Under the pieces are notes generated by a model. It was not told where the DNA came from. It searched no databases and saw nothing but the letters and a program-made list of their open reading frames with translations. Position numbers and translations under genes: made by a program. This document shows positions 1 to 15,217 of a stretch of 15,217 nucleotides of DNA, piece by piece (position 1 is the stretch's first letter; every line of letters begins with the position of its first letter). The DNA comes from an uncultured Pseudorhodoferax sp. Lineage in GTDB: Bacteria > Pseudomonadota > Gammaproteobacteria > Burkholderiales > Burkholderiaceae. Location of the stretch: the NCBI GenBank assembly GCA_913776795.1, contig CAJYRH010000238.1, positions 1 through 15,217 on the forward strand. Direction: 5' to 3'.

Positions 1-82
1 TGCGCTGCAGCCTTCAAGCTGAAACGTCCACATCCCGATCCAGGGTCAGATCCACCCGCCTTCTGCGCATGCGGTGATTCCG

Positions 83-100
83 ACGCTGCTCCTGCAGCGT
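83..100. other. Perfect 7-bp inverted repeat upstream of the cohesin gene
   Basis: ACGCTGC (83-89) and GCAGCGT (94-100) are perfect inverse complements around a TCCT loop, about 80 bases before the cohesin gene start. No T-run follows, so it is not a standard intrinsic terminator. It could be an mRNA leader hairpin, an operator, or chance in GC-rich DNA. Apart from this and the ribosome binding site near 171-175, I see nothing definite in bases 1-182; no convincing -35/-10 pair was found. Confidence 0.3.
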
Positions 101-182
101 GACGCGCCCAGATGGCGCAGTTCACGCGTGCTCGACAACGTGCAACCAAGCCAACCCAACCTTCCAACAAGAGGAAAACACC

Positions 183-755
183 ATGCTGAATCCATCGCTC
201 TTTGCATTGCGTGCTGCCGGAGCGTGCGCACTGGCGCTTGCGCTCGTGTCGCCCGCACATGCGGCGCCGGTCCTTGAAATGTCGGCAGCAGCCTCGGCGA
301 CCGGGATCGACCTCACCGTGCGTGCACGGGATGCCGTGGACCTGTACGGGTACCAGTTCACGCTGAACTTCAACCCGGCACTGCTGACTGCCATCGGTGG
401 CACCGAGGGCGCCTTCCTGCGGAGCGGCGGGGCAACCTTCTTCGACGCCGGCAGCATCGACAACGGCACCGGCTCCATCGCGTACACGTTCGGCTCGCTG
501 ATCGGGGACATCGGCGGCGTGAGCGGGTCGGGCGACCTGGCTGTCTTTTCCTTCGGCGTCCAGCAGGGTGGATTGGCCAGCTTCACATTCTCGGACGTCG
601 AGTTTCTCGATTCGACGCTGACGGCAATCTCCGTGGACACCACGGACCTGGTGGCCCAGGTCAGTGAAGTGCCGGAGCCGGGCAGTCTGTTGCTGGCCGC
701 GGGCGGCCTGTTCGCCCTGCTCGGCAGCCGTGCCATCAAGCCGAAGGCGCGCTGA
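183..755 (+). CDS. Secreted cohesin-domain protein with PEP-CTERM sorting signal
   Basis: 190 residues. Residues 1-27 form a Sec signal peptide with a hydrophobic core and an AHA cleavage site. Residues about 30-160 look like a cohesin-type beta-sandwich: the stretch DLYGYQFTLNFNPALLTA (53-70) fits the early strands of cohesins, and a GDLAVFSF segment (117-124) fits the later one. The C-terminus is a textbook PEP-CTERM tail: VPEP at 163-166, a hydrophobic helix, then a basic end (R183, K186, K188, R190). In this family, exosortase recognises the tail and sorts the protein to the outer surface or extracellular matrix. The start at 183 is preferred over an in-frame ATG at 99 because GAGGA (171-175) precedes it and the signal peptide begins there. 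The next gene, 85 bp downstream on the same strand, ends in a dockerin, the natural partner of cohesin. Its role as that enzyme's anchor is inferred. No exosortase gene is in the window. Confidence 0.82.
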   Translation: MLNPSLFALRAAGACALALALVSPAHAAPVLEMSAAASATGIDLTVRARDAVDLYGYQFTLNFNPALLTAIGGTEGAFLRSGGATFFDAGSIDNGTGSIAYTFGSLIGDIGGVSGSGDLAVFSFGVQQGGLASFTFSDVEFLDSTLTAISVDTTDLVAQVSEVPEPGSLLLAAGGLFALLGSRAIKPKAR

Positions 756-840
756 CGCGGCCACCCCATCGCGATCGGGCCCCGGCATGGCCAGGCCAGC
801 CAGGGTTGCCAGGTCATCGGAATACTCAAAAAGGACGAGC

Positions 841-3651
841 ATGTTGTTCCATAAATTCAGACTCAACGCGATCTGCATCGCGCTGCCGACGGTGTTCGCA
901 GTGGCCACCGGCGCTCTGGCAGCGGACCGGCCTGTGGACCCTGCCAATTGGCCGGCCTTGAAGGATGTCTACAAAAACCATTTCCTGATCGGCACCACGG
1001 GCCCAAGCGCGGCCACGTATGCCTCCAACGTCGTGCCGGGCGAGAACTCGGCGGCTGCCATGCGGTTGAAGCACTTCAACGCCGTGACGCCCGAGAACGA
1101 CATGAAGCCGCAATCCCTCTGGGGGGGTGGCCGCCCGAATGAGAACCCGGCGTTTCTGACGAATCTGACCTCGGGCATCAACAACGATCTGCGGGCGGCC
1201 AATGCCGCCGGCGTCAAGGTCACCGGGCATGTGCTGATCTGGCACAACCAGTCGGGCACGTGGCCGGCCGCCAATGTGCTGACGCCCGAGGGGCTGTGGG
1301 AAACGCCGTGGGACTATGCGACGGCGAAGGCGAATCTGGAGTTCTACGTGCGCACCGTCGCCTCCCACTTCGACCAGGAGCCGCGCCGGCTCTACGCCTG
1401 GGACGTTGTGAACGAGGCATTCAAGGACAACCCCGACAACCCTGCGGACTGGCGCAATGCCCTGCGCTCGGGCTACAGCCCCGAGGAGAGGCCGGCCCGC
1501 TGGGCCCAGGCCTACTCCAAGGGCGGCAAGAGCTGGGACTACATGTACGACGCCTACTTTTATGCGCGCCAGAACACGACCGCGCGCCTGGTCTACAACG
1601 ACTTCAACGACAACGAGCGGGAGTCGAAGGCGAACGCGATCGCGTCGATGGTCAAGGAGTTCAACGAGCGCTACGCGGCCGAGTCGGCTGCCGGCAGGGG
1701 CCGCATCCTGCGCGATGCCAACGGACAGCCCAGGCCGCTGGTCGAGGTGATCGGCACCCAGGGCCACCTGAACATGCGGCTCAACATGGACGCCTTCGAA
1801 AGGACGGTCAAGACCTACCTGGACATCGGCGTGGATGTCGACATCACCGAACTGGAAGCGGCGCCCACCCTCGGTCTGGACAAGAACCAGCGGATCCAGA
1901 ACGGCCCAGAGATGAACAGCATCTTCATGGCCCAGGGGGTCTACTACGCGAAGATGCTGAACATGCTCAAGGAGTACGCCGTCGGCCCTGCGGGCAAGAA
2001 CCGGCAGTACAAGGGCGGTGTGCACCGGGTGTCCTGGTGGGGCCTGACGGATCCGGGCTACCACACGAACGGCTACCTCTGGTCGGCCGTCGGCCAGCCC
2101 AAGGAAGCCTATTGGGCCGTGGCGAATCCGGACCAGTACCTGACCGACGCGGGCCTGCCGGTCAATGGCGTCACTGCGACCATCAACTACGGCGGCGAGA
2201 CGTTCACGGCCAGAACATGGGGCGGCAAGAACACCCATGCGCGGCTGGACATCAACGTGCCTGCCGGCACGAAGAATGTCAGCTTCACGGCCCGGAACAT
2301 CTCGTTGCCCGCCGGCTACACGGTCGAGAGCATCAAGTACAGCCCCTCCAACTGCGCGGTGATTCCCGGCAAGCCGTGCCACGTGACCGTGAAGGCGCGG
2401 GGCGCGGACCCGGCACCGGCCTACCAGGCCGTGGGCGTGGAGAACACCGCCACGTATGTGCTGTCGTTTGGCAACATGGCGGTGTCGTGGTTCGAGAACT
2501 CGGCCGCCCTGGCAGCCCCCTACGCCTATGCGGATGTGCGCTTCAGCGACGGCGTGACCAAGCTCAGGCAGTACAAGACGGCCAACGGTGCCGATGGAAC
2601 GCTGCAGGCCACCGGCGCCACCGAACTCAAGGCCGTGCCCAGGCATGGGCGCACGACGCTCGTGCTGAACGCGCAGGAGTTGATCGCGAACCCGGTCGGG
2701 CTGCGGCTGAACAGGGACGATGCGACGGCCAAGGCCTGGCGGCTCGTCGACCGGATCGAACCGGGCAGGACGTACATGGTCCTGTCGGCGGATTCGACGT
2801 TCCGCGACGGCGTTGAAACGAAGGGCTATGTCCTGACCAACCGGACGAAGCCAGCCAGCACCGCCGTCAATGGCATGGCCGCCCCGGAATCGCTGTCGCG
2901 TACGCCTGTCGTGCTGCGCGGCGACGTGCTGGTGCCCCTGCGCAACCCGAATGCGCCGCAAGGCGAGCCGGCGCTGGCGCAGGACAACCTCAAGTTCATG
3001 CTGGAGGAGGCGAAGAGCCCGGCCGCGGGACGGTACGAAAGCCAGGCGGGCTACACCATGGAGAGCTTCATCCATGGCACCAATGTCTATCCCAACGTCA
3101 TGTTCAGAGGCAACGGCGCGGCCGGCACCGTGGTGGGCGATTACTACTCGCTGATCACGCGGCAGCAGAACGGGGCCGAAGGCACGCCGGTCGCCGACCG
3201 GGCGCTGGACCAGGCAGTGTGGTTCCACACGCCGATCGACCAGAAGACCGGCGAGACCAAGATGTTCCTGTACACGGAACGCGACGCGACCGAGCAGCAC
3301 TATGCGCTGAAGGAAGTGGACAGTGGGGACACGCCGAACCGCGACACCGGCAACGCCATCAGCCAGCGGCAGGCAGCGACCGGGGGCTTCGTGGCCATGC
3401 GCGCGGCGACCCCGGACGGTGGGACCACCGTGAAGTTCTATGCCTATGACATGAAGCCGTACATCTACGGCGACGTGGACGGCAACGGCGCAGTCTCTTG
3501 TGCGGACCTGACGGCGGCGAAGGCGTCGGTCGGCAAGCGCACGGGCCAGGCCGGGTTCCTGCCCGCCGCCGACGTGGACCAGAACGGGATCGTCGACATC
3601 CGCGACATCTCCGGCATCTCGCGTCTGCTCCCTGCAGGCACCGGCTGCTGA
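841..3651 (+). CDS. Secreted GH10 endo-1,4-beta-xylanase-type enzyme with C-terminal dockerin
   Basis: 936 residues. A signal peptide ends at ALA (25-27). The GH10 catalytic barrel spans about 35-435: ENDMK (85-89), GHVLIWHNQ (129-137), WDVVNE with acid/base E192, NDFN (253-256), GTQGH (305-309), and DITELE with nucleophile E337. GH10 enzymes cleave internal beta-1,4 bonds in xylan with retention. Residues about 440-870 are a long region I cannot assign; C505 and C513 may form a small disulfide loop. Residues 876-936 are a dockerin with two EF-hand-like calcium loops, starting D878 and D911, with acidic or Asn ligands at loop positions 1, 3, 5 and 12. The enzyme has no sorting signal of its own, so the dockerin probably moors it to the cohesin encoded just upstream. 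The start at 841 follows AAGGA (831-835) and opens the signal peptide; an in-frame ATG at 664 lies inside the preceding gene. The exact substrate (xylan or a related glycan) is not provable here. Confidence 0.92.
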   Translation: MLFHKFRLNAICIALPTVFAVATGALAADRPVDPANWPALKDVYKNHFLIGTTGPSAATYASNVVPGENSAAAMRLKHFNAVTPENDMKPQSLWGGGRPNENPAFLTNLTSGINNDLRAANAAGVKVTGHVLIWHNQSGTWPAANVLTPEGLWETPWDYATAKANLEFYVRTVASHFDQEPRRLYAWDVVNEAFKDNPDNPADWRNALRSGYSPEERPARWAQAYSKGGKSWDYMYDAYFYARQNTTARLVYNDFNDNERESKANAIASMVKEFNERYAAESAAGRGRILRDANGQPRPLVEVIGTQGHLNMRLNMDAFERTVKTYLDIGVDVDITELEAAPTLGLDKNQRIQNGPEMNSIFMAQGVYYAKMLNMLKEYAVGPAGKNRQYKGGVHRVSWWGLTDPGYHTNGYLWSAVGQPKEAYWAVANPDQYLTDAGLPVNGVTATINYGGETFTARTWGGKNTHARLDINVPAGTKNVSFTARNISLPAGYTVESIKYSPSNCAVIPGKPCHVTVKARGADPAPAYQAVGVENTATYVLSFGNMAVSWFENSAALAAPYAYADVRFSDGVTKLRQYKTANGADGTLQATGATELKAVPRHGRTTLVLNAQELIANPVGLRLNRDDATAKAWRLVDRIEPGRTYMVLSADSTFRDGVETKGYVLTNRTKPASTAVNGMAAPESLSRTPVVLRGDVLVPLRNPNAPQGEPALAQDNLKFMLEEAKSPAAGRYESQAGYTMESFIHGTNVYPNVMFRGNGAAGTVVGDYYSLITRQQNGAEGTPVADRALDQAVWFHTPIDQKTGETKMFLYTERDATEQHYALKEVDSGDTPNRDTGNAISQRQAATGGFVAMRAATPDGGTTVKFYAYDMKPYIYGDVDGNGAVSCADLTAAKASVGKRTGQAGFLPAADVDQNGIVDIRDISGISRLLPAGTGC

Positions 3652-3689
3652 CCCCAGCGTGATGCACGGCCGGCCCGTGCCGGTCCATG

Positions 3690-3716
3690 GACGCCCGGTG
3701 CAATGCGCCGGGCGTC
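3690..3716. terminator. Hairpin between convergent GH10 and yicC genes, possible terminator
   Basis: GACGCCCGG (3690-3698) pairs perfectly with CCGGGCGTC (3708-3716), and the stem extends inward by a T-G and a G-C pair around a five-base loop. It lies 38 bases past the GH10 stop in the 138-base convergent gap. Only a weak T stretch (CTTT, 3721-3724) follows, so intrinsic termination is uncertain. A smaller 6-bp hairpin (GCACGG/CCGTGC, 3664-3680) precedes it. Confidence 0.5.
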
Positions 3717-3789
3717 TGCGCTTTCAGCGCGCCAATGCGCGCATCGCACGGAGGGGCGAGGGCAGGGTGGCTTGGAGCCCGCGACCCCG

Positions 3790-4707
3790 TTACTCGACGT
3801 TCTGCACCTGCTCGCGCATCTGCTCGATCAGCACCTTCATGTCGACCGAGATGCGCGTCAGTTCCAGCGCTGCCGACTTCGATCCCAGCGTGTTGGCCTC
3901 GCGGTGCAGCTCCTGGATCAGGAAATCGAGCCGCTTGCCGAGCTCGCCGCCGTTTTTGAGCAGGCGCTCGATCTCGTCCAGGTGCGAGTCCAGCCGGGTG
4001 ATCTCCTCGGCCACGTCGATGCGGATCGCGAAGGCCGTGGCTTCGGTCAACGCGCGGTCCTGCGCAGCCTCGGGCAAGGTCGCGCCATCGGCCAGGGCCA
4101 TGGCTTCCTTCCAGCGGTCCAGGAAGCGCTGGCGCTGCTGCTCCACAAGTTGCGGCACCAGTGGCAGGGCCTGTGCCGCGAGTGCCCGCAACTGGCCCAG
4201 GCGTTCGTTCAGCATCACCGCAAGGCGGGCGCCTTCGCGCTGCCGGGCGGCCAGCAGCTCCTTGAGCACCTTCTCGGCCAGCGGCAGCACCTGCTCGTCG
4301 AGCTCGCCCGTGCCGTGCTGCTCGGCAGACGACAGCCGGATCACCTCGGCCACCGACAGCGGGGTGGCACTGGGCAGCCAGGAACGCACCTGGTCCTGCA
4401 CGCCGTTCAGGCGCTGCAGCAGGCGCGGCGTGGGCTCGGGCACGCTGCCCGCGTCGACGTTGTCGATGGCCGCGCGCAGTTCGACCTTGCCGCGCTTGAG
4501 CTTGGCCGTTAGCAGTTCGCGCAGCGCCGGCTCCTGCTGGCGCAACTCGTCGGGCAGGCGGAATGCGAGGTCGAGGAAGCGGCTGTTGACGGCCCGGATC
4601 TCGATGCCAAGGCGGCGCGCCGGGCCGCCTTTCGCGTCCTGATCGGCGGTGTTGCCGGCGCCACTTTGCTGGGCGCGTGCGTAACCGGTCATGCTGTAGA
4701 CTGGCAT
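3790..4707 (-). CDS. yicC: YicC/YloC family endoribonuclease
   Basis: 305 residues starting MPVYSMTGYARA, the typical opening of YicC proteins. Further family marks are EIRAVNSRFLDL near the N-terminus, a VAEEITRLDSHLDE segment, and the C-terminal DUF1732 hallmark KRLDFLIQELHREANTLGSK. The family is cytoplasmic and oligomeric and has been shown in E. coli to cut RNA; the physiological targets here are unknown. The start at 4707 is chosen to keep the PVYS residues seen in relatives; the inner Met at 4692 is also possible, and neither has a clear ribosome binding site. It is divergent from the kinase gene, with a 73-bp gap (4708-4780) that must hold both promoters; I could not define either. 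In related genomes gmk, rpoZ and spoT often follow yicC; here the carbohydrate-enzyme pair faces it instead. Confidence 0.93.
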   Translation of the reverse strand: MPVYSMTGYARAQQSGAGNTADQDAKGGPARRLGIEIRAVNSRFLDLAFRLPDELRQQEPALRELLTAKLKRGKVELRAAIDNVDAGSVPEPTPRLLQRLNGVQDQVRSWLPSATPLSVAEVIRLSSAEQHGTGELDEQVLPLAEKVLKELLAARQREGARLAVMLNERLGQLRALAAQALPLVPQLVEQQRQRFLDRWKEAMALADGATLPEAAQDRALTEATAFAIRIDVAEEITRLDSHLDEIERLLKNGGELGKRLDFLIQELHREANTLGSKSAALELTRISVDMKVLIEQMREQVQNVE

Positions 4708-4780
4708 GAGAACGTTTCTGGTCGTTGCAAAGGCCAGAGAATAACGGCTTCCACCTCCCGCGACGATCGCAGCCCCTTCC

Positions 4781-5791
4781 ATGACCAAGAGCAAGCCGGC
4801 GCCGTTGCGGCCCGAGACCGTCATCGGCGGCTACCGCATCGTCCGCAGGCTTTCCTCGGGCGGTTTCGGCATGGTCTATCTCGCCATCGACGGCGAAGGC
4901 AACCATGTGGCAGTCAAGGAATATCTGCCCTCGTCGCTGGCCTCGCGCGAGCCGGGGCATGCGCTGCCGGTGGTGACGGCGGAGAAGCTGTCGCTGTACC
5001 GCCTCGGGCTCAAGAGCTTCTTCGAGGAAGGCCGCTCGCTGGCCCAGATCGCGCACCCCTCGGTGGTCAGCGTGCTCAATTTCTTCCGCGAGAACGAGAC
5101 CGTCTACATGGTCATGAACTACCTGGAGGGGGCGACCCTGCAGGACTTCATCATCACCTCGCGCGAACTCAAGCGGCCCAAGGTGTTCCGCGAATCGACG
5201 ATCCGCTCGCTGTTCGACGAGGTGCTGCGCGGACTGCGCATCGTGCACCAGCACAAGATGCTGCACCTGGACATCAAGCCGGCCAACATCTTCATCACCG
5301 ACGACGACAAGGCCGTGCTGATCGATTTCGGCGCCGCGCGCGAGGTGCTGAACAAGGAAGGCAATTTCGTCCGGCCGATGTACACGCCTGGATTCGCCGC
5401 GCCCGAGATGTACCGGCGCGACGCCACCATGGGGCCGTGGACCGACATCTACGCCATTGGCGCCTGCATCTACGCCTGCATGCTGGGCTTTCCGCCCGCC
5501 GAGGCACCCCAGCGGCTGGAGAAAGACCGCATCACGATCTCGCTGGCGCGCCTGCGCGGCGTGTACTCCGACAACCTGATCGAGGTGGTCGGGTGGTGCA
5601 TGGCGCTTGACCCGTTGTCGCGGCCCCAGTCGGTGTTCGCCCTGCAGAAGGAGCTCAGCCGCGAGGGCGAGCGACGCTACACCAAGCTCTCCATGAGCGA
5701 GAAGATCCGCATGCAGTTCGACACCCTGGTGTCCGACGGCAAGAAGCCCGGGGCCGCGCCCGCCGGCTCGAGCGACAAGACCTCGCGATGA
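4781..5791 (+). CDS. Soluble Hanks-type serine/threonine protein kinase
   Basis: 336 residues, essentially one kinase domain (about 15-292) plus a short polar tail. Visible motifs are the glycine loop ending GGFG (27-30), AVKEYL with ATP-binding K46, the HLDIKPANIF catalytic loop with D164 and N169, IDFGAAR with metal-binding D182, and APE (207-209). Two departures are notable: the first glycine of GxGxxG is serine (S25), and HRD reads HLD, making it a non-RD kinase. No transmembrane helix, PASTA or FHA domain is present, so it should be cytoplasmic. Its stop overlaps the start of the PP2C phosphatase (ATGA), indicating translational coupling and an antagonistic kinase/phosphatase pair. Its substrates are unknown. 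The start at 4781 is the first plausible Met before the domain; the Shine-Dalgarno site is poor. Confidence 0.93.
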   Translation: MTKSKPAPLRPETVIGGYRIVRRLSSGGFGMVYLAIDGEGNHVAVKEYLPSSLASREPGHALPVVTAEKLSLYRLGLKSFFEEGRSLAQIAHPSVVSVLNFFRENETVYMVMNYLEGATLQDFIITSRELKRPKVFRESTIRSLFDEVLRGLRIVHQHKMLHLDIKPANIFITDDDKAVLIDFGAAREVLNKEGNFVRPMYTPGFAAPEMYRRDATMGPWTDIYAIGACIYACMLGFPPAEAPQRLEKDRITISLARLRGVYSDNLIEVVGWCMALDPLSRPQSVFALQKELSREGERRYTKLSMSEKIRMQFDTLVSDGKKPGAAPAGSSDKTSR

Positions 5792-6675
5792 GGTTCTCGG
5801 TCTTCCAGGTGAGCCGGCGCGGTGGCCGCACACGCAACGAAGACCGCATGGGCTACTGCTACACGCGCGAGTCGGGCCTGTTCGTGTTGGCCGATGGCAT
5901 GGGCGGGCATCCCGACGGAGATGCCGCTGCGCAGCTCGCGGTGCAGACGGTGTCCTCCCTGCACCAGCAGCAGGCCACGCCACAGCTGGCGCAGGCCGGT
6001 GACTTCCTGGTGCACGCCCTGCTGGCCTCGCACCGGCGCATCCTGCGCTATGGGGACGAGCGCGGCCTGGCCGACAAGCCGCGCACCACGCTGGTGGCGG
6101 CCGTGGTGCAGGGCGACAGCCTCACCTGGGTGCATTGCGGCGATTCGCGCCTGTACCTGCTACGTGGCGGCGCGCTGCTGGCGCGCACGCGCGACCATTC
6201 CTACCTCGAGCAGATGCCGGCCGACACGGCGCGGGCGGGCCGTGTCAACCGCAATGTGCTGTACACCTGCCTGGGCTCGCCGGTGGCGCCTGAATACCAG
6301 CTCGGCGGGCCGATTGCCCTGCAGCGCGGTGACAAGATCCTGCTGTGCTCCGATGGCCTGTGGTCCAGCGTGAGCGACGCGCGCATCGTCGAGCAGCTGG
6401 CGGCACTGCCCGTGGCGCAGGCCGTGCCGGAACTCGTGGAGCAGGCACTGCGCGCGGCTGGCGAGACCAGCGACAACGTGACGGCGCTGGCGCTGGAATG
6501 GCGTTCGGTGGACGCCTTCGCCTCCACGTGCGGCCAGGCGCCCGATGCCTTCGCCGCCACCGTGCAGGGCCTGGACCCCAAGGCGGGCGAGCCCGCGCTG
6601 GACGAAGCCGACATCGACCGCTCCATCGCCGAGATCAACGAGGCCATCCGCCGCACTGCGGCCCGCCGCGTCTGA
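5788..6675 (+). CDS. PP2C-family serine/threonine protein phosphatase
   Basis: 295 residues. The PP2C metal-binding residues are present: NEDR (D19), ADGMGGH (D36, G37), SDGLW (D189) and TSDN (D229, N230); GDSR (118-121) marks the core. These bind the Mn/Mg pair that drives phosphoester hydrolysis. The family normally closes near the DN motif plus one strand, about residue 238. Here a further 55 or so residues follow, ending in a predicted acidic-to-basic helix (271-295), which could contact the kinase or a substrate. No membrane segment is seen. The gene starts inside the stop of the kinase gene, so the two are almost certainly made together and act on the same targets in opposite directions. 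No neighbouring FHA or type VI secretion genes suggest a secretion role. Confidence 0.94.
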
Positions 6676-6705
6676 CCTGTGCCGGGCGCGGTCTTCGCGC
6701 TTGGC

Positions 6706-6711
6706 GACAAT
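6706..6711 (+). promoter_or_regulatory. Possible -10 element immediately before rph
   Basis: GACAAT lies 7 bases upstream of the rph start codon, inside the 43-base gap after the phosphatase gene. If used, transcription would begin at or next to the ATG, giving a leaderless or nearly leaderless rph message. No good -35 is seen at the right distance and no ribosome binding site precedes the ATG. It may equally be chance, with rph read through from upstream. Confidence 0.3.
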
Positions 6712-6718
6712 CGCCCCC

Positions 6719-7447
6719 ATGACTGAATTTGCAAGAACCGGCGGACGTGCCGCCGACCAGCTGCGCCCCGTGCGCATCACCCGTGGCTTCACCATCCATG
6801 CCGAGGGCTCGGTGCTGATCGAGTTCGGCCAGACGCGCGTGCTGTGCACCGCCTCGGTCGAAGACAAGGTGCCGCCGCACAAGAAGGGCAGCGGCGAGGG
6901 CTGGGTGACGGCCGAGTACGGCATGCTGCCGCGCGCCACCCATACACGCGGCAGCCGCGAGGCCGCCAAGGGCAAGCAAAGCGGCCGCACGCAGGAGATC
7001 CAGCGCCTGATCGGCCGCTCCATGCGCGCCGTGTTCGACTTGAAGCGCCTGGGCGAGCGCACCATCCACCTCGATTGCGACGTGCTGCAGGCCGACGGTG
7101 GCACGCGCACGGCCGCCATCACGGGCGCCTTCGTGGCAGCGCAGGACGCGGTCGACAAGCTGCTGGCCGAAGGCAGGCTCACCGCCTCGCCCATCGTGCA
7201 GCCGGTGGCGGCGATCTCCGTGGGCATCGTCCAAGGCACGCCGCTGCTGGACCTGGAGTACACGGAAGACTCGGCTTGCGATACCGACATGAACGTGGTC
7301 ATGACGGGCGCCGGCCACTTCGTCGAGGTGCAGGGCACGGCCGAGGGCGCCGCCTTCACGCGCGCCGAGATGGACCAGCTGCTGCAGCTGGCCGACAAGG
7401 GCATCCGGGAACTGATCGGGCTGCAGCGCTCTGCATTGGCGGGTTGA
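6719..7447 (+). CDS. rph: Ribonuclease PH
   Basis: 242 residues, about the usual length. RNase PH is a phosphorolytic 3'-to-5' exoribonuclease that trims tRNA 3' ends in the cytoplasm as a hexameric ring. Signature blocks are [11 protein letters not shown] (39-49), [19 protein letters not shown] (64-82), [15 protein letters not shown] (90-104), [18 protein letters not shown] (121-138, with the phosphate-binding GTR) and DTDMNVVMT (188-196). The start at 6719 matches the family N-terminus, shortly before the RxxDQLRPV block; the frame is open upstream but that part overlaps the phosphatase gene. rdgB follows after only two bases, a pairing conserved in many proteobacteria. Confidence 0.97.
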
Positions 7448-7449
7448 GC

Positions 7450-8049
7450 ATGGACCTGGTCCTGGCTTCCAACAACAAGGGCAAGCTGGCCGAGTTGCAA
7501 GCCCTGTTCGCGCCGCTGGATGTGCGCCTGGTGGCCCAGGGTGAACTGGGCGTGCCCGAGGCCGAGGAGCCGTTCCGCACCTTCGTCGAGAACGCGCTGA
7601 CCAAGGCCCGCAATGCTGCGCACCACACCGGCCTGGCCGCCGTCGCCGACGACGCCGGCCTGTGCGTCGACGCCTTCGGTGGCCTGCCGGGCGTGGACAC
7701 GGCCTACTACGCGACGCAGTTCGGCTATGCCAAGGGCGACGACAACAACGTGCGCGCGCTGCTCGAGCAGATGCGCGGCGTGCAGGACCGGCGTGCCGCG
7801 CTCGTCAGCACGCTGGTGGCCGTGCGCAGCCCCCAGGATCCGGAGCCGCTGATCGCGGTCGGCCGCGCCGTGGGCCGCATCACCGAGGCGCCGGTCGGCG
7901 AAGGCGGCTTCGGCTTCGATCCGGTGATGTGGATCGAGGCGTTCGGCAAGACCTTCGCCGAACTGCCGGCGGAGGTGAAGAACGCCCACAGCCACCGCGG
8001 GCAGGCTGCGCGCGAGATGCTGCGGCTGATGCGCGAGCGCTGGTTCTAG
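7450..8049 (+). CDS. rdgB: dITP/XTP non-canonical purine NTP pyrophosphatase (RdgB/HAM1)
   Basis: 199 residues, the family's usual size. The enzyme hydrolyses dITP, ITP and XTP to monophosphates and keeps deaminated purines out of nucleic acids. Motifs are SNNKGKLAEL (7-16), ENALTKA (47-53), ADDAGLCVDAFGGLPG (66-81, with the metal/catalytic Asp pair D67-D68), GFGFDP (153-158) and SHRGQA (181-186), all at expected places. The segment after LPG reads VDTAYYA rather than the common SARYAG form; such variants occur in the family. It begins two bases after the rph stop and ends two bases before the hemW start, so it is surely co-transcribed. Confidence 0.97.
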   Translation: MDLVLASNNKGKLAELQALFAPLDVRLVAQGELGVPEAEEPFRTFVENALTKARNAAHHTGLAAVADDAGLCVDAFGGLPGVDTAYYATQFGYAKGDDNNVRALLEQMRGVQDRRAALVSTLVAVRSPQDPEPLIAVGRAVGRITEAPVGEGGFGFDPVMWIEAFGKTFAELPAEVKNAHSHRGQAAREMLRLMRERWF

Positions 8050-8051
8050 CG

Positions 8052-9320
8052 ATGTCCGGCATGCGCGCCCGCGAACTGGCGGACTTTATGCGGCCCAGCG
8101 TGCTGCAGCTGCAGGCGCTTCCGCCGCTGGCGCTGTACCTGCACCTGCCCTGGTGCATCCGCAAGTGCCCCTACTGCGACTTCAACTCGCATGCCGTGCG
8201 CGGCGATGAAGCGGTCGTTCGCTGGGGCGGTGCCGACGCGCCCACCGTGACCCAGGTGTCGGCCCCCGCAGAACTGCCCGAGCAGCGCTACATCGACGCG
8301 CTGATCGCCGACCTCGAGGCCGCGTTGCCGCTGGTCTGGGGCCGCACCGTGCACAGCATCTTCATCGGCGGGGGGACGCCCAGCCTGTTCTCGCCGCAGG
8401 CCATCGACCGGCTGCTGGGCGACGTGCGCGCACGGCTGCGGCTGGAGGCCGATTGCGAGATCACGCTGGAGGCCAATCCCGGCACCTTCGAGAAGGACCG
8501 CTTCCGCGCCTACCGCGCCGCCGGCGTCACGCGCCTGTCCGTGGGCGTGCAGAGTTTCGACGACGCCATGCTGCAGGCCGTGGGCCGCGTGCACGACCGC
8601 CGCCAGGCCATCGCCGCGCTCGAGGAGGCGGGCGAGGCGTTCGACACCTTCAACCTGGACCTCATGTACGCGCTGCCGGGCCAGACGCCCGGCATGCTGG
8701 CGCGGGACCTGGAGACCGCGCTGGCGCTGGCGCCGCCGCACCTGTCGGTCTACCACCTCACCATCGAGCCCAACACCTTTTTCGCCAAGCACCCGCCGAT
8801 GCTGCCGGAGGACGACACCGCCTACGCGATGCTGGACCAGATCACCGAGGCAACCGGCCGCGCGGGGCTGGAGCGCTACGAGGTGTCGGCCTATGCCCGC
8901 GCCGGCCACCGTTGCGTGCACAACGTCAATTACTGGCAGTTCGGCGACTATCTCGGCATCGGCGCGGGCGCGCACAGCAAGCTGAGCTTTGCCCACCGCG
9001 TGGTGCGCCAGGTGCGGCTGCGCGAGCCGGGGCTCTACATGGCGCAGGCCCTGGCCGGGGCCGCGCTGGCGCAGGACGAGGACGTGCGCAGGGCCGACCT
9101 GCCGTTCGAGTTCATGCTCAATGCGCTGCGCCTGCGCGAGGGTTTTGCGCTGCAGGATTTCACCGAACGCACTGGCCTGCCGCTGTCCAGCATCGCGGCC
9201 GGCCTGACCGAAGCCGAGCAGCGCGGCCTGCTGCTGCGGGACGCCGCCCGCGTGCGGCCGAGCGAGAAGGGTTTCGACTTCCTCAGCGATCTGCAGGCAA
9301 TCTTCCTATCCGGCGCCTAG
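8052..9320 (+). CDS. hemW: HemW, radical SAM heme chaperone
   Basis: 422 residues. The radical SAM cluster ligands are C35, C39 and C42 (CIRKCPYC), followed by DFNSH. The residue two after the last Cys is Phe, as in HemW, whereas the coproporphyrinogen dehydrogenase HemN has a fourth Cys there. Other marks are GGGTPSLF (107-114), the LSVGVQSFDD block (162-171), and HNVNYW (290-295) followed by GDYLGIGAGAHSK (298-310). HemW binds heme and hands it to respiratory enzymes; older annotation as oxygen-independent coproporphyrinogen oxidase is probably wrong. Between DFNSH and the next family block lies an extra stretch of about 25 residues (51-77). A Met at residue 4 is an alternative start. Confidence 0.95.
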   Translation: MSGMRARELADFMRPSVLQLQALPPLALYLHLPWCIRKCPYCDFNSHAVRGDEAVVRWGGADAPTVTQVSAPAELPEQRYIDALIADLEAALPLVWGRTVHSIFIGGGTPSLFSPQAIDRLLGDVRARLRLEADCEITLEANPGTFEKDRFRAYRAAGVTRLSVGVQSFDDAMLQAVGRVHDRRQAIAALEEAGEAFDTFNLDLMYALPGQTPGMLARDLETALALAPPHLSVYHLTIEPNTFFAKHPPMLPEDDTAYAMLDQITEATGRAGLERYEVSAYARAGHRCVHNVNYWQFGDYLGIGAGAHSKLSFAHRVVRQVRLREPGLYMAQALAGAALAQDEDVRRADLPFEFMLNALRLREGFALQDFTERTGLPLSSIAAGLTEAEQRGLLLRDAARVRPSEKGFDFLSDLQAIFLSGA

Positions 9321-9346
9321 CGCCTCTACCTCACCGGAGTACATCG

Positions 9347-10144
9347 ATGGATTTGCAACTGACGGGCCAGCATGTCTTGATCACGGGTGGCAGCAAAGGC
9401 ATCGGCTTGGCCTGCGCGCAGGCCTTCCTGCGCGAGGGTGCGCGCGTGAGCCTGGTCTCGCGCGATGCCGGCAACCTCGAGCGTGCCGCATCGGCGCTGC
9501 GGGCCGACTTCGCCGATGCATCCACACGGGTGCAGACCCATGCGGCCGACCTGCGCGACGCGCCCGCGGCGCTGGCGGCGGTCGACGCCATCGAACAGCA
9601 GGCCGGCGCCGTGCAGGTGCTCGTCAACTCCGCCGGTGCGGCCAAACGCACGCCGCCCAACGAGTTGACGCCGCAGGCCTGGCACGACGCCATGGACGCC
9701 AAGTACTTCAGCTACATCCACGTGATCGACCCGCTGGTCAAGCGCATGGCCGAGCGCGGGGGCGGTGCCATCGTCAACGTGGTCGGTGCGGGTGGCAAGG
9801 TTGCGAGCCCCATCCACATGCCGGGCGGCGCGGCCAACGCGGCGCTGATGCTGGTCTCGGCCGGCATGGCCGCGGCATACGCGGCCAAGGGCGTTCGCGT
9901 GAACGCGGTGAATCCGGGGCTCACGCTGACCGAGCGGCTGAAGGAGGGCATGGCGGCCGATGCGCGCCTGCAGGGCATCGACACCGACGAGGCGCTGCGC
10001 CGCGCCACGGCGCGCCTGCCGCTCGGCCGCATCGCCGAGCCGGCCGAGATCGCCGATGCGGTGCTGTTCCTGGCGTCGGCGCGTGCAAGCTACATCACGG
10101 GCGCGATCCTGGCCATGGACGGGGCCGTGACGCCGATGATCTGA
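9347..10144 (+). CDS. Short-chain dehydrogenase/reductase-like protein lacking the catalytic tetrad
   Basis: 265 residues with a clear SDR Rossmann fold: TGGSKGIG (13-20) for the dinucleotide, ADLRD (67-71), NSAG (94-97), and the VNAVNPG block (185-191). The C-terminal PLGRIAEPAEIADAVLFLAS segment and the DGA near the end are also typical. The usual Asn-Ser-Tyr-Lys tetrad is absent by my alignment: the positions read K119, G147, G160 and N164, in MPGGAANAALM where YxxxK should be. It may bind NAD(P) without ordinary carbonyl reduction, or use other residues. The start is supported by GGAG at 336-339 of the 9000s (9336-9339). It follows hemW by 26 bases, so it is likely the operon's last gene. 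The substrate is unknown. Confidence 0.9.
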   Translation: MDLQLTGQHVLITGGSKGIGLACAQAFLREGARVSLVSRDAGNLERAASALRADFADASTRVQTHAADLRDAPAALAAVDAIEQQAGAVQVLVNSAGAAKRTPPNELTPQAWHDAMDAKYFSYIHVIDPLVKRMAERGGGAIVNVVGAGGKVASPIHMPGGAANAALMLVSAGMAAAYAAKGVRVNAVNPGLTLTERLKEGMAADARLQGIDTDEALRRATARLPLGRIAEPAEIADAVLFLASARASYITGAILAMDGAVTPMI

Positions 10145-11002
10145 TCAGTGCTGCAGCCGCCGCAGCGCGGAGACGCGGTCGGCGATGACGGCCGTGTCGC
10201 GCGGCTCGTCGGCGAACACCAGGTACTTTTCCAGGTCGAGCACCGCCTCGTCGGTGTTGCCCAGGTCGGCATGGGTGAGACCGCGGTCGCGGTACTCGGA
10301 CCATGCCTCGGGCAGCAGCACCACGAGCCGGTTCTGCACCGCCAGCAGGCGCTGCGCGTCCGATTGGCTGCGGTGGATCTCCTTCAGGTTGCGCAGCATG
10401 CGCGCCAGGACGTCGCGCGGCCGGGCCGACTGCAGGTACAGGCCCAGCGGCACGTCGAAGTCTTCGCCGTGCTCGGCCTGTTGCTGCTGCTTGTAGGGTG
10501 CCAGGCGCTCCACCAGTTCCTCGCGGCTCAGCGACTGGCCGACGAAGGGATCGATCACCACCTGGCCCTTGGGCAGGTTGACCTTCACCAGGAAGTGGCC
10601 GGGAAAATTGATGCCGCGCACCTGCAGGTTGAGGCTCTGCGCCAGCTCCATCCACAGCACGGCCAGCGAGATGGGGATCCCCATGCGTGTGCGAAGCACC
10701 GCATTGAGATAGCTGTTGTCGGGGTCGTAGTAGTTGTTCACGTTGCCGCCGAAACCGAGTTCTTTGTAGAAGAACTGGTTCAGCATGCGCAGCCGGTGCA
10801 ACGGTGGCGCGTCGGCGGCCAGGCGGCGTTGCAGGCGGGCCTGCAACTGGTCCATGTCGCCGAGAACCTGCTGCACGTCCAGCTCGGGGTATTCGTCGTG
10901 GGCCAGGCTGGCGCAGGCCTCGAGCAGCGGGAATTGCTCGTCGCTCTGGACCAGGGAGGCGAAGTAGTCGAGCGGCGTCGGAATCGGGTAGCTGGGCGGC
11001 AT
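10145..11002 (-). CDS. SirB1-family protein (transglutaminase-like fold plus TPR-like repeats)
   Basis: 285 residues. The core (about 65-155) is the SirB1 transglutaminase-like domain: NYYDPDNSYLNAVLRTRMG (90-108), GIPISLAVLWMELA (108-121), FPGHFLVK (133-140) and VIDPF (149-153). The His (H136) and Asp (D151) of the transglutaminase triad are kept, but serine (S112) sits where the catalytic Cys would be, as appears usual in this family, so it is probably not a classical transglutaminase or protease. Residues about 198-262 look like helical TPR repeats, suggesting protein binding. The precise function is unknown. Its stop codon directly abuts that of the SDR gene on the other strand (TGATCA, 10142-10147), with no room for a terminator. 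It lies 53 bases downstream of murJ on the same strand and may be read from the murJ promoter. Confidence 0.88.
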   Translation of the reverse strand: MPPSYPIPTPLDYFASLVQSDEQFPLLEACASLAHDEYPELDVQQVLGDMDQLQARLQRRLAADAPPLHRLRMLNQFFYKELGFGGNVNNYYDPDNSYLNAVLRTRMGIPISLAVLWMELAQSLNLQVRGINFPGHFLVKVNLPKGQVVIDPFVGQSLSREELVERLAPYKQQQQAEHGEDFDVPLGLYLQSARPRDVLARMLRNLKEIHRSQSDAQRLLAVQNRLVVLLPEAWSEYRDRGLTHADLGNTDEAVLDLEKYLVFADEPRDTAVIADRVSALRRLQH

Positions 11003-11055
11003 CGGTTCTTTGTAATGGACGGGCCAGGGCGCGTCAAGCCAGGCGGCGGATGGCC

Positions 11056-12624
<1,569 letters not shown>

Positions 12625-12686
12625 CGCGGCGAGTGTAGCCAGCGGCCAGGGCGGCGCCCTGGAAGCCGGCCATGTATGGGCGGCGC

Positions 12687-12695
12687 TGTTATACT
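12687..12695 (+). promoter_or_regulatory. Extended -10 promoter of rpsT
   Basis: TGTTATACT has the extended -10 TGn followed by TATACT (12690-12695), close to the sigma-70 consensus. The -35 position is not consensus, which extended -10 promoters tolerate. Predicted transcription starts near 12702, giving a leader of roughly 40 bases that contains AAGGA (12730-12734), 9 bases before the rpsT ATG. Confidence 0.65.
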
Positions 12696-12743
12696 GGCGG
12701 GCTTTGCTGGCAACATCCTCAAGCCCTTTAAGGAACACATACC

Positions 12744-13049
12744 ATGGCAACCAAGCCCAAGAAGAAGAACCCGCGCCTGGCGTCGGGCCGCAAGCGCGTC
12801 CGCCAGGACGTCAAGATCAACGCCGCGAACACCTCGCTGCGCTCCAAATACCGCACCTTCGTCAAGAACGTCGAGAAGGCCGTTGCTGCCGGCGACAAGA
12901 CGAAGGCCACCGAACTGTTCGGCAAGATGCAATCCGTGGTCGACACCGTCGCCGACAAGGGCATCTTCCACAAGAACAAGGCCGCGCGCGACAAGAGCCG
13001 CCTGGCCGCCAAGGTCAAGGCCCTGGCCACTGCCCCGGCCGCAGCCTAA
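12744..13049 (+). CDS. rpsT: 30S ribosomal protein S20
   Basis: 101 residues, very basic, beginning [17 protein letters not shown]. It contains the S20 blocks [21 protein letters not shown] (28-48) and [20 protein letters not shown] (73-92). S20 binds 16S rRNA near helix 44 and helps assemble the small subunit. It is somewhat longer than E. coli S20 (87 residues) because of an Ala-rich tail. It has a good ribosome binding site (AAGGA, 12730-12734), its own extended -10 promoter and a strong terminator, so it is a single-gene unit. In other bacteria S20 represses its own translation through the leader; nothing here proves that. Confidence 0.98.
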
Positions 13050-13064
13050 ACCAGCCAACCCGCC

Positions 13065-13084
13065 CGGGTTGCACTTGCAACCCG
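13065..13084 (+). other. Inverted repeat after rpsT
   Basis: CGGGTTGC (13065-13072) pairs perfectly with GCAACCCG (13077-13084) around the loop ACTT, 15 bases past the rpsT stop. No T-run follows. It may protect the rpsT 3' end or assist the true terminator about 40 bases further on. Confidence 0.5.
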
Positions 13085-13121
13085 CCGTTTGACCGGGTGC
13101 GCTGCCAGCAAGGAAAAAGAG

Positions 13122-13144
13122 AAACCGCCTTCGGGCGGTTTTTT
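13122..13144. terminator. Bidirectional intrinsic terminator between rpsT and the DUF3579 gene
   Basis: AAACCGCC (13122-13129) and GGCGGTTT (13134-13141) form an 8-bp perfect stem closed by a stable TTCG loop, followed by six T (13139-13144). An A-rich run upstream (13113-13124) gives the same arrangement on the minus strand, so it can stop the convergent DUF3579 gene too. Confidence 0.92.
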
Positions 13145-13168
13145 CTTGGGCGCATGGATGTGGGCAGC

Positions 13169-13486
13169 TCAGCGCTTGGGCGGCTCGGGCACCAGGCAGG
13201 CTTCGGCCACCTGCAGTTCGTTGTCCTTGGCGAAGTTCATCGCGAAATCCCAGGCCATCACGTCGTAGTCGCGCAGGTCGTGGTGCACGATCACGCATTT
13301 GATGCCGTTGATCGTGGTCGGCACACACCAGGGCGAATAGCCCAAATGGCTGCCCGGCTGCGGCCCGCCCGGGCGGAACTGGCTCAGCACGCCGGCCAGC
13401 CGCTCGGCCCAGTCGCTGGGGCGAAAGGTCCTGCCGTCGCGCGTGATGCCCTGGATGAAGACTTCCTTGGACGGGGGCGGGGTCAT
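13169..13486 (-). CDS. DUF3579 family protein
   Basis: 105 residues starting MTPPPSKEVFIQGITRDGRTF, which I recognise as DUF3579, a small uncharacterised family of betaproteobacteria. Visible features are RPSDWAERLAGVLSQF (28-43), a central YSPWCVPTTINGIKCVIVH block and the VMAWDFAMNFAKDN segment; there is no signal peptide or membrane helix. No function can be given from sequence. The start at 13486 is chosen because the open frame upstream is low-complexity and unlike the family; a clear ribosome binding site is not seen. It converges on rpsT and is divergent from argD. Confidence 0.88.
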   Translation of the reverse strand: MTPPPSKEVFIQGITRDGRTFRPSDWAERLAGVLSQFRPGGPQPGSHLGYSPWCVPTTINGIKCVIVHHDLRDYDVMAWDFAMNFAKDNELQVAEACLVPEPPKR

Positions 13487-13668
13487 CTGGTCGGATCGGT
13501 GGAGATGGATGCGCTGGGGTGCTGCATTGTGTGCAGGACTCGCTGCAAGAACGGTGCCGTTCTCATGTTGCGGCGCACCACAGTTTAGCCGAGCCGCCCG
13601 TCGCCGCCCTGTCGCCGGGCGCATGGCTGTGATGCGGATTCGTCAAAAAAGCGAGCAATCGCTGCCCC

Positions 13669-13674
13669 TAGAAT
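13669..13674 (+). promoter_or_regulatory. Possible -10 element of the argD-argF operon
   Basis: TAGAAT is one base from the TATAAT consensus and lies in the 276-base divergent gap (13487-13762). No clear -35 stands 16-18 bases upstream. It would give a leader of about 80 bases. I saw no ArgR-type operator. The rest of the gap shows nothing else definite apart from an A-run at 13645-13650. Confidence 0.35.
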
Positions 13675-13762
13675 CGCCGTTCAGCGGGCCCAGGCGACAT
13701 GCCGTGAGGCGCCGGTCTTGCTGAATCCCCCGTGTTTCGCCCCTTCTGGAGAGATCAGCACC

Positions 13763-14971
13763 ATGACCGCTGCCGTAGAGCCCGCATCCCCCCACGTCAT
13801 GAACACCTACGGCCGCGTACCGATCGCGCTGTCGCATGGCCAGGGCGTGCGCGTCTGGGATACGAATGGCAAGCAGTACATCGACGCGCTGGGGGGCATC
13901 GCGGTCAACACGCTGGGCCACAACCACCCCAAGCTGGTGCCGGCGCTGCAGGACCAGCTCACCAAGATCATCCACAGTTCCAACTACTACCACGTGCCCG
14001 GGCAGGAGAAGCTGGCGGCCAAGCTGACTGAACTGGCCGGCATGACCAACGCCTTCTTCTGCTGCACAGGCCTGGAGGCCAACGAGGCCGCCATCAAGCT
14101 GGCGCGCAAGTTCGGCCACGACAAGGGCATCAAAAAACCCGAGATCGTCGTCTACGAGAAGGCCTTCCACGGCCGCAGCATCGCCACGCTGTCCGCCACC
14201 GGCAACAGCAAGGTGCAGCAGGGCTTTGGCCCGCTGGTCGAGGGCTTCATCCGCGTGCCGCTCAACGACATCGCCGCGCTCAAGGCCAGGACCGAAGGCA
14301 ACCCCAACGTGGTGGCCGTGTTCTTCGAGACCATCCAGGGCGAGGGCGGCGTGAACCCCATGCGCGCCGAGTACCTGCAGCAGGTGCGCCAGCTGTGCGA
14401 CGAGCGCGACTGGCTGCTCATGATCGACGAGGTGCAGTGCGGCATGGGCCGCACGGGCAAGTGGTTCGCGCACCAGTGGGCCGGCATCGTGCCCGACGTG
14501 ATGCCACTGGCCAAGGGCCTGGGCTCGGGCGTGCCGATCGGCGCCGTCGTCGCCGGCCCCAAGGCCGCCGGCATCTTCGGCCCCGGCAACCATGGCACCA
14601 CCTTCGGCGGCAACCCGCTGGCCATGCGCGCGGGCATCGAGACCATCCGCATCATGGAAGAAGAGGGCCTGCTGGAGAACGCCGCCAAGGTCGGCGCGCA
14701 CCTCAAGCAGGCGCTGCAGACGGCCTTCGAAGGCGTGGAAGGCTTCAAGGAGATCCGCGGCCAGGGCCTCATGCTCGGCGTGGAACTCACGCGCCCCTGC
14801 GGCGTGCTGACGGCGCGCGCCGCCGAGCGCGGCCTGCTGCTCAGCGTGACGGCCGACTCCGTGATCCGCATGGTGCCCTCGCTGATCCTGTCGCAGGCCG
14901 AGGCCGACGAGATCGTCGCCATCCTCGTGCCGCTGGTGAAGGAATTCCTCGCAGAACCGGTGGCCGCATGA
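13763..14971 (+). CDS. argD: Acetylornithine aminotransferase
   Basis: 402 residues, normal length for this class III PLP-dependent aminotransferase. It converts N-acetylglutamate semialdehyde and glutamate to N-acetylornithine in arginine synthesis; related enzymes also serve lysine synthesis as succinyldiaminopimelate aminotransferase. Motifs are DALGGIAVNTLGHNHP (41-56), TGLEANEAAIKLARK (102-116), AFHGRS (134-139), ETIQGEGGV (189-197), IDEVQCGMGRTGK (221-233, PLP-ring D222) and PLAKGLGSG with the Schiff-base K251, then GTTFGGNPLA (278-287). The usual SGAEAN reads TGLEAN, a mild change. GGAGA (13748-13752) precedes the ATG. Its stop overlaps the argF start (ATGA), which indicates coupling. 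Class III homologues with other substrates cannot be excluded, but the argF neighbour makes ArgD firm. Confidence 0.95.
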   Translation: MTAAVEPASPHVMNTYGRVPIALSHGQGVRVWDTNGKQYIDALGGIAVNTLGHNHPKLVPALQDQLTKIIHSSNYYHVPGQEKLAAKLTELAGMTNAFFCCTGLEANEAAIKLARKFGHDKGIKKPEIVVYEKAFHGRSIATLSATGNSKVQQGFGPLVEGFIRVPLNDIAALKARTEGNPNVVAVFFETIQGEGGVNPMRAEYLQQVRQLCDERDWLLMIDEVQCGMGRTGKWFAHQWAGIVPDVMPLAKGLGSGVPIGAVVAGPKAAGIFGPGNHGTTFGGNPLAMRAGIETIRIMEEEGLLENAAKVGAHLKQALQTAFEGVEGFKEIRGQGLMLGVELTRPCGVLTARAAERGLLLSVTADSVIRMVPSLILSQAEADEIVAILVPLVKEFLAEPVAA

Positions 14972-15217
14972 GCACCAGCAACATCCGGCACTACCTGCAA
15001 TTCAGCGACTTCACGGCCGACGAATACGCCTACCTGTTCGCGCGCGCCGCGCTGATCAAGCGCAAGTTCAAGGGCTACGAGAAGCACCATCCGCTGGCGG
15101 ACCGCACGCTGGCCATGATCTTCGAGAAGGCCAGCACGCGCACGCGCGTGAGCTTCGAGGCCGGCATGTACCAGATGGGCGGCTCGGTGGTCAACCTCAC
15201 CACCGGCGACAGCCAGC
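14968..15217 (+). CDS. argF: Ornithine carbamoyltransferase, 5' part only
   Basis: The first 83 codons are present; the gene continues past the window end. It starts MSTSNIRHYLQFSDFTADEY and contains FEKASTRTRVSFEAGMYQMGG, where STRTR is the carbamoyl-phosphate binding loop of the carbamoyltransferase family. The enzyme joins carbamoyl phosphate to ornithine to give citrulline. The ornithine (not aspartate) assignment comes from the N-terminal similarity and the argD partner that overlaps it by 4 bp; the ornithine-binding SMG motif lies outside the window. Confidence 0.95.
   Translation, partial: MSTSNIRHYLQFSDFTADEYAYLFARAALIKRKFKGYEKHHPLADRTLAMIFEKASTRTRVSFEAGMYQMGGSVVNLTTGDSQ

Follow-up and report, generated by a model that had tools for sequence, protein, structure and literature searches.

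A cohesin–PEP-CTERM protein encoded beside a dockerin-bearing GH10 xylanase: a probable two-gene anchor in Burkholderiaceae

Results

A cohesin gene and a dockerin gene side by side

The subject of this analysis is a pair of adjacent genes in a 15,217-nucleotide stretch of DNA from an uncultured Pseudorhodoferax sp. of the Burkholderiaceae (contig CAJYRH010000238.1, positions 1 to 15,217; hereafter, the window). The upstream gene encodes a small secreted protein with a single cohesin domain and a PEP-CTERM tail, and the downstream gene, which starts 85 bp after the end of the first, encodes a secreted GH10 xylanase that carries a dockerin at its C-terminus. This arrangement had been proposed in the original prediction and is confirmed here by open reading frames (ORFs) and Pfam domains. 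We argue below that the pair probably docks the xylanase and anchors it at the cell surface. The features, all on the forward strand, are:

183-755, +, cohesin–PEP-CTERM anchor gene, 190 amino acids (ORF and Pfam domains)
183-263, +, Sec-type signal peptide of the anchor, about residues 1-27 (by eye; helix 4-22 in the model)
300-647, +, cohesin domain of the anchor, residues 40-155 by Pfam, fold 28-161
669-731, +, PEP-CTERM tail of the anchor, residues 163-183: VPEP, hydrophobic stretch, basic end
841-3651, +, GH10 xylanase-dockerin gene, 936 amino acids (ORF and Pfam)
841-921, +, Sec-type signal peptide of the enzyme, about residues 1-27 (by eye)
958-2127, +, GH10 catalytic domain, residues 40-429 (Pfam PF00331, 150 bits)
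3466-3624, +, type I dockerin, residues 876-928, with loops DVDGNGAVSCAD and DVDQNGIVDIRD (Pfam; matches to 2ccl_B and 1ohz_B)

The anchor cohesin scores 30.8 bits against PF00963 (curated cut-off, 24.1) and is predicted by the structural model to adopt a beta-sandwich fold; the tail scores 21.2 bits in Pfam (cut-off, 20.7). Cohesin and PEP-CTERM are the only Pfam domains of this protein, with one cohesin in 190 amino acids. The enzyme has no sorting tail of its own. Its dockerin scores 27.4 bits against PF00404 (cut-off, 22.9) and contains DVDGNGAVSCAD and DVDQNGIVDIRD, which, by the loop rule for dockerins, we take to be the two calcium-type dockerin loops. Residues E192 and E337, presumably the GH10 catalytic glutamates, are unchanged in all 25 GH10 sequences compared. 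Searches found 74 homologues of the anchor protein and 206 of the enzyme. The single-protein architecture of cohesin plus PEP-CTERM is not new, as one anchor homologue was already labelled 'Cohesin domain/PEP-CTERM motif' by its source. The anchor cohesin had no match among plasmid records at E 1e-5. The sigma-54 spacing GG-N10-GC occurs in some PEP-CTERM promoters; when the upstream regions of the window gene and of six relatives were searched for it, it was found in the window, L018 and L020, at differing distances, and was absent in four relatives, and is therefore not conserved.

All 66 GH10 C-termini examined contain a cysteine in the loop-1 region of the dockerin and another in the last four residues, and none of the 68 cohesin cores contains cysteine. 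This pattern fits a clamp within the dockerin, as opposed to a disulfide between the partners. The conserved cysteine pair (window positions 3466-3651) is also visible in the M12B, M20 and penicillin amidase partners described below, possibly marking a disulfide-clasped dockerin subtype.

Dockerin, membrane-type tail and exosortase among xylanase relatives

One scan of a genome collection yielded 26 GH10 loci related to the window enzyme, two of which (L009 and L010) look near-identical; the nearest are from Pseudorhodoferax (86 percent). Five loci (L001, L002, L015, L018, L020) encode an intact dockerin with a cohesin–PEP-CTERM gene directly upstream, and the same five are the genomes, out of 26, in which a Pfam cohesin is present. 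In G015, the two neighbors are the sole Pfam cohesin and the sole Pfam dockerin of the genome; in G002, which also has a single cohesin, the second dockerin sits in a 7,160-amino-acid frame. A dockerin without a cohesin is found at two loci (Rhizobacter L017 and L022) and dockerin remnants at two more (a truncated one at L003 and, at L019, a dockerin-like stretch that follows a stop codon). At 14 loci, mostly of Variovorax, Xenophilus and Pseudacidovorax, in genomes without a Pfam cohesin, the dockerin is replaced by a proline-rich linker, a hydrophobic stretch and an arginine run. The remaining loci are L014 at a contig end, L021, which ends early, and L023 (Synergistaceae), with another hydrophobic tail. 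That orthologues lacking the dockerin mostly carry a membrane-type tail of their own fits the claim of a dedicated anchor.

The tail of L004-L013, L016 and L024-L026 (proline-rich linker, GG, hydrophobic stretch, arginine run) recurs in Variovorax-type xylanases. In five such proteins, it scored below the cut-offs of all NCBIfam sorting-tail models (best, 13.4 versus 25.35 bits), and we therefore call it only a membrane-type tail; possibly, it is an undescribed sorting tail. Three GH10 proteins (L137, L161 and L162, from G361, G017 and G022) have an intact SLWKR-type dockerin in genomes where a cohesin was not found; this would be either an orphan docking module or one whose anchor is too divergent for detection.

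EpsH scoring at least 228 bits is encoded in all nine GH10 genomes with a dockerin or its remnant and in none of the other 17 (Fisher test, p = 3.2e-7); 14 of these 17 encode a divergent PF09721 protein of 74-90 bits (cut-off, 25.7) and three encode none, so that 'no exosortase' is true only of the EpsH-like type. Thus, some of the enzymes carry a dockerin, usually alongside a cohesin anchor and in every case alongside high-scoring EpsH, and most of the others carry a membrane-type tail of their own. Divergence was compared in 12 GH10 pairs: that of the window, two established from loci L018 and L099, and nine in which the anchor and enzyme homologues were matched by contigs of equal length. 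The correlation between cohesin and dockerin distances was 0.60, and 0.52 once enzyme divergence was removed (permutation p = 0.009).

Cohesin-dockerin pairs across the family

We surveyed 399 genomes, an even sample from a larger group, all belonging to the same family as G015. PF00963 matched 54 times, in 42 genomes, and 68 genomes yielded 88 rows for PF00404. By open frame, the 54 cohesin matches comprise 28 short proteins, 20 proteins of about 750-1,100 amino acids and six giant ones. Altogether, 87 regions were examined for dockerins by means of a profile and a pattern of two loops; adjacency was judged from open frames, without a gene finder, and strands and gaps were counted by hand.

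Twenty-six of the 28 short cohesins have a PEP tail, the exceptions being those of G351 (at a contig edge) and G183. Conservation of the neighborhood in related genomes, which the original prediction had named as a check, is borne out: a gene for a dockerin protein adjoins 25 of the 26 PEP-tailed Pfam cohesins, that of G082 being the exception. Seven of these 25 dockerins were missed by Pfam (two in G018, and those of G202:1130800, G246, G287:C134, G314:C1 and G385:C53) and were identified by the custom profile or the loop pattern; a Pfam dockerin lies within 10 kb of 18 of the 28 short cohesins. The genes are on the same strand in 19 pairs; in the other six, of M12B type, the genes point away from each other, are separated by as much as about 1 kb and in some cases have a small ORF in between. 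At L102 (5642-6172) and L103 (6984-7520), a similar ORF of about 178 amino acids, with a secreted-looking start by eye, lies between the M12B-dockerin and cohesin genes.

As a control, we used cohesins on secretins, which account for 19 of the 20 longer frames (C-terminal cohesin by Pfam). The same detectors, applied over about 5 kb or as far as the contig reached, found no dockerin near any of the 19. One further protein, G163:C34, is small and anchor-like, with a long open frame and a variant tail (AEP, hydrophobic, RRRR), and adjoins a dockerin; it had been misplaced by frame length and was left out of the control. The contrast of 25/26 PEP-tailed with 0/19 secretin-type cohesins gives a Fisher p of 8.2e-12, and that of 18/26 with 0/19, for Pfam dockerins only, 1.1e-6, values that overstate independence because of kinship among genomes and pairs. 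The cohesin-dockerin neighborhood is not due to chance.

EpsH of at least 215 bits is present in all 21 survey genomes with a PEP-tailed Pfam cohesin; because a PEP tail implies an exosortase, this co-occurrence is a consistency check, not an independent proof. Among genomes with only secretin-type Pfam cohesins, EpsH was found in seven of 16 (one, G153, has a divergent pair in L124), and of the two genomes with tail-less short cohesins, G351 had no EpsH match and G183 had one of 88 bits. Some genomes (G202, G314, G287, G018) contain two or three pairs. In a sample of 349 genomes from the phylum, a Pfam cohesin was detected in three, G015 among them, and the module is therefore rare outside the family; in G701 (L168), a PEP-tailed cohesin adjoins a dockerin protein, and in G486, the match is in another long protein.

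Other cohesin and dockerin contexts were also observed. The 19 secretin (GspD-like) proteins with a C-terminal cohesin (L165-L167, L170-L185), many with tetratricopeptide repeats, come from many genomes of the family. In a 7,560-amino-acid frame (G001:C2:2578-3090; L033, L056), dockerin and cohesin matches are 85 bp apart, and further dockerin matches sit in frames of about 7,000-14,800 amino acids.

Divergent cohesins and the range of partner enzymes

Dockerin genes also adjoin PEP-CTERM proteins outside the Pfam cohesin matches. To assess cohesin identity, the signal peptide and PEP tail were trimmed and the rest was scored against the cohesin profile. At a threshold of 5 bits, chosen after looking at the scores, 36 of 37 dockerin-adjacent PEP proteins reached the mark, the divergent ones with 5-26 bits, and the four other PEP proteins from the same loci all scored 0.2 bits or less. 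The trimmed set of 38 included L154 (of G082), which has no adjoining dockerin and scored 7.9 bits. When profiles built for groups of these proteins were compared, the hhalign probability was 100 percent for the M12B group, 95.9 percent for the C25 and sugar-dehydrogenase group, 92.9 percent for the propeller group, 73.9 percent for the phospholipase group and 0.1 percent for the control. In the phospholipase group, the evidence that the neighbors are cohesins is no more than suggestive, and several single members are assigned putatively, through their group.

Partner domains were scanned in 20 proteins. The Pfam-detected cohesins are paired with GH10, penicillin amidase, metallo-beta-lactamase fold, M12B reprolysin-like, M20 and C25-type proteins, the last represented by L123, L126 and L158, which were called C25-type only by the likeness of their ends to scanned C25 proteins; L109 and L135, beside Pfam cohesins, had no catalytic match. 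The partners of profile-level cohesins are a calcineurin-like phosphoesterase (L110), a metallo-beta-lactamase fold protein (L111), phospholipase C (L112), a VWA7-type protein (L116), glucose/sorbosone dehydrogenase (L119) and C25 peptidases (L122, L146), with propeller or lactonase-like matches below Pfam cut-offs in L133 and L136. The neighbor of L164 (C25) is a Pfam cohesin of 30.3 bits outside the list of 54 matches. These amount to about ten enzyme or domain types, mostly not glycosidases; the common theme of the partners is a large secreted protein, not plant-wall degradation.

Other genes in the window

At positions 4781-6675 of the window, amid housekeeping genes, lie adjacent genes that, by eye, look like those of a Ser/Thr kinase and a PP2C-type phosphatase. 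These genes are outside the cohesin-dockerin finding.

Discussion

A putative dedicated anchor

The best reading of these observations, and one that we consider likely, is a dedicated two-gene anchor, in which an exosortase-sorted cohesin would hold the neighboring enzyme by calcium-dependent docking. Judging by their signal peptides, both proteins would leave the cytoplasm via Sec. An EpsH-type exosortase would then recognize the PEP-CTERM tail of the small cohesin protein, which, by analogy with the known PEP-CTERM/EpsH system, would come to lie at the cell surface or within the exopolysaccharide matrix. The C-terminal dockerin of the xylanase, folded around two calcium ions, would bind the single cohesin of its neighbor, a step suggested by family, fold and gene pairing, and the xylanase would be retained at the surface or in the matrix because of this binding. 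The enzyme, lacking a sorting tail and held by a sorted cohesin, would thus borrow its sorting signal from a second protein. On the most economical account of the sequences, the dockerin takes the place of a sorting tail on the enzyme itself, and the tail is supplied by the neighbor. The matrix or the surface is the likely destination, given that PEP-CTERM proteins are tied to exopolysaccharide in two reports (PMC1569441, PMC9850573). The claim in the original prediction of a single cohesin on an exosortase-type anchor for one enzyme is supported by the adjacency of the pair in relatives and by EpsH in all 21 survey genomes.

Several observations weigh against this two-gene anchor, in addition to the kinship behind the p-values and the divergent PF09721 proteins in genomes without a dockerin. 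The PEP tail of the window protein falls below the NCBIfam TIGR02595 cut-off (11.5 versus 16), and the model of the full-length, 936-residue enzyme is poor (predicted local distance difference test score, 60.5). In G082, no dockerin was seen with the PEP-tailed Pfam cohesin; among the 25 pairs, G018:C39 and G202:1130800 have a non-canonical first calcium loop, and G202:2872478 and G287:C134 have a dockerin that is internal, not terminal. Gene neighbors can be linked without direct binding. A reverse count started from the 88 dockerin rows. Three rows were dropped (two second matches in a counted frame and one below the cut-off), and of the other 85, 14 are in frames longer than 2,000 amino acids, 12 are partial matches, mostly covering profile positions 19-52 and taken as EF-hand-like, four were not fetched and 55 were examined. 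Of the latter, 34 count in favor of the anchor, as each is near a PEP-CTERM protein whose tail-trimmed sequence reaches 5 bits or more with the cohesin profile, a threshold set after seeing the trimmed scores (L153, with 1.4 bits, was counted as a miss); 21 have no such neighbor. The unpaired ones include GH10 enzymes of G017, G022 and G361 and a group of 613-635 amino acids in at least four genomes. The three GH10-dockerin genomes lack any detectable cohesin; the G361 enzyme is 67 percent identical to that of the window over 926 residues. Free dockerins therefore exist, and an adjacent anchor is not required.

Alternative explanations

The locus could be a minimal cellulosome, in which several dockerin enzymes from genes across the genome share one surface cohesin as their docking site. 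Its cohesin and dockerin are like cellulosomal modules in fold and sequence, and the genomes with two or three pairs (G202, G314, G287, G018) make cross-docking conceivable. However, Pfam finds just a single cohesin and a single dockerin in G015, the second dockerin of G002 (again with one cohesin) sits in its giant frame, neither a scaffoldin with several cohesins nor a carbohydrate-binding module was seen to accompany the anchors, and the partner adjoining 25 of the 26 PEP-tailed cohesins is mostly not a glycosidase; we consider this explanation improbable. Membership in a cellulosome proper was rejected: there is a single cohesin in 190 amino acids and no scaffoldin with several cohesins, and the anchor has Pfam domains for Cohesin and PEP-CTERM only, with no carbohydrate-binding module. 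Accordingly, the term 'cellulosome-like' in the original prediction is not supported, and its suggestion that one anchor could also hold other dockerin enzymes finds no support in G015, where the only Pfam cohesin and dockerin are the two neighbors. Across relatives, the number of Pfam dockerins is 0-3 per genome.

A second possibility involves no docking at all: the cohesin-fold protein would be a structural protein of the matrix, and the dockerin a calcium-stabilized C-terminal cap for enzyme stability. The cysteine pair conserved in all GH10-dockerins (66/66) could simply clamp the terminus, and some dockerin enzymes come from genomes with no cohesin. Against this, unrelated partner enzymes have cohesin-like neighbors in common, cohesin and dockerin divergence are correlated beyond that of the enzyme, and orthologues without a cohesin mostly have no dockerin or have lost it, which would be odd for a stability cap. 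This scenario, too, appears unlikely. Less probable still is piggy-back export, in which docking in the periplasm is followed by exosortase-coupled PEP-CTERM transit that takes the enzyme through the outer membrane. With signal peptides on both (by eye), the proteins would meet in the periplasm, and no evidence places the docking step outside; but GH10 orthologues persist without a cohesin and without high-scoring EpsH, so that the enzyme probably has another exit or works membrane-tailed.

Returning to the dedicated two-gene anchor, a broader version of it seems to us evenly balanced between right and wrong. Across exosortase-bearing Gram-negatives, the sorting signal may be split, with dedicated cohesin–PEP-CTERM adaptors delivering about ten unrelated large secreted enzymes (a glycosidase, peptidases, an amidase, a lipase, a phosphatase, a dehydrogenase and others) to the surface matrix; the cohesin-dockerin contact might then be the hand-over between the enzyme and the exosortase pathway. 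Docking could even precede export, with the adaptor carrying the enzyme out.

Relation to known systems

The type I clostridial cellulosome of C. thermocellum (1OHZ, 2CCL) differs from the arrangement described here, which has one cohesin per anchor, no scaffoldin and no carbohydrate-binding module, a PEP-CTERM tail in place of S-layer or sortase anchoring, and usually one partner, mostly not a glycosidase. As in the PEP-CTERM/EpsH system (Haft 2006, PMC1569441), there is an N-terminal signal, a PEP-CTERM tail and EpsH in the genomes of relatives; unlike in that system, the sorted protein is here the proposed docking adaptor for a second protein. The main text of that paper associates PEP-CTERM proteins with exopolysaccharide and contains 0 occurrences of cohesin or dockerin.

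Non-cellulosomal cohesins and dockerins have been described elsewhere, and their role was called not known in a review citing a 2009 survey (PMC5244752). The hypothetical 'planctosome' of freshwater Planctomycetes (PMC6461901) is likewise a non-cellulosomal cohesin-dockerin complex, proposed for extracellular M12B and M14 peptidases, but it differs in its 2,210-amino-acid lamin-tail anchor and an adaptor with both modules, and the passages on it mention neither a PEP-CTERM tail nor two-gene pairs. In anaerobic methanotrophic (ANME) archaea (PMC9012536, PMC5244752), cohesins and dockerins outside cellulosomes have a role called unknown or unclear in the relevant passages; these proteins are scaffoldin-like, with up to five cohesins, and the passages describe no exosortase-tailed single-cohesin neighbor gene. 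Aquincola tertiaricarbonis, another strain of which carries the pair (L020), has in strain RN12 a floc-forming PEP-CTERM protein, PepA, whose overexpression raised bound exopolysaccharide (PMC9850573); PepA differs in being RpoN-dependent and tied to floc formation. Within open-access literature, which leaves most subscription papers and bioRxiv preprints uncovered, we found no report joining cohesin or dockerin with PEP-CTERM; one paper has cohesin, dockerin and exosortase in separate sections.

Implications

The module consists of only two genes and occurs in dozens of natural pairs, and would therefore be a source of numerous cohesin-dockerin combinations that could be tested for displaying enzymes on Gram-negative bacteria. 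The findings suggest a concrete, repeatable role for non-cellulosomal cohesins and dockerins in one bacterial family, as a one-to-one anchor for varied surface enzymes. Exosortase substrates are proposed to act as adaptors for other proteins, which would widen the scope of PEP-CTERM sorting, and related bacteria seem to use the two-gene anchor for several unrelated enzymes.

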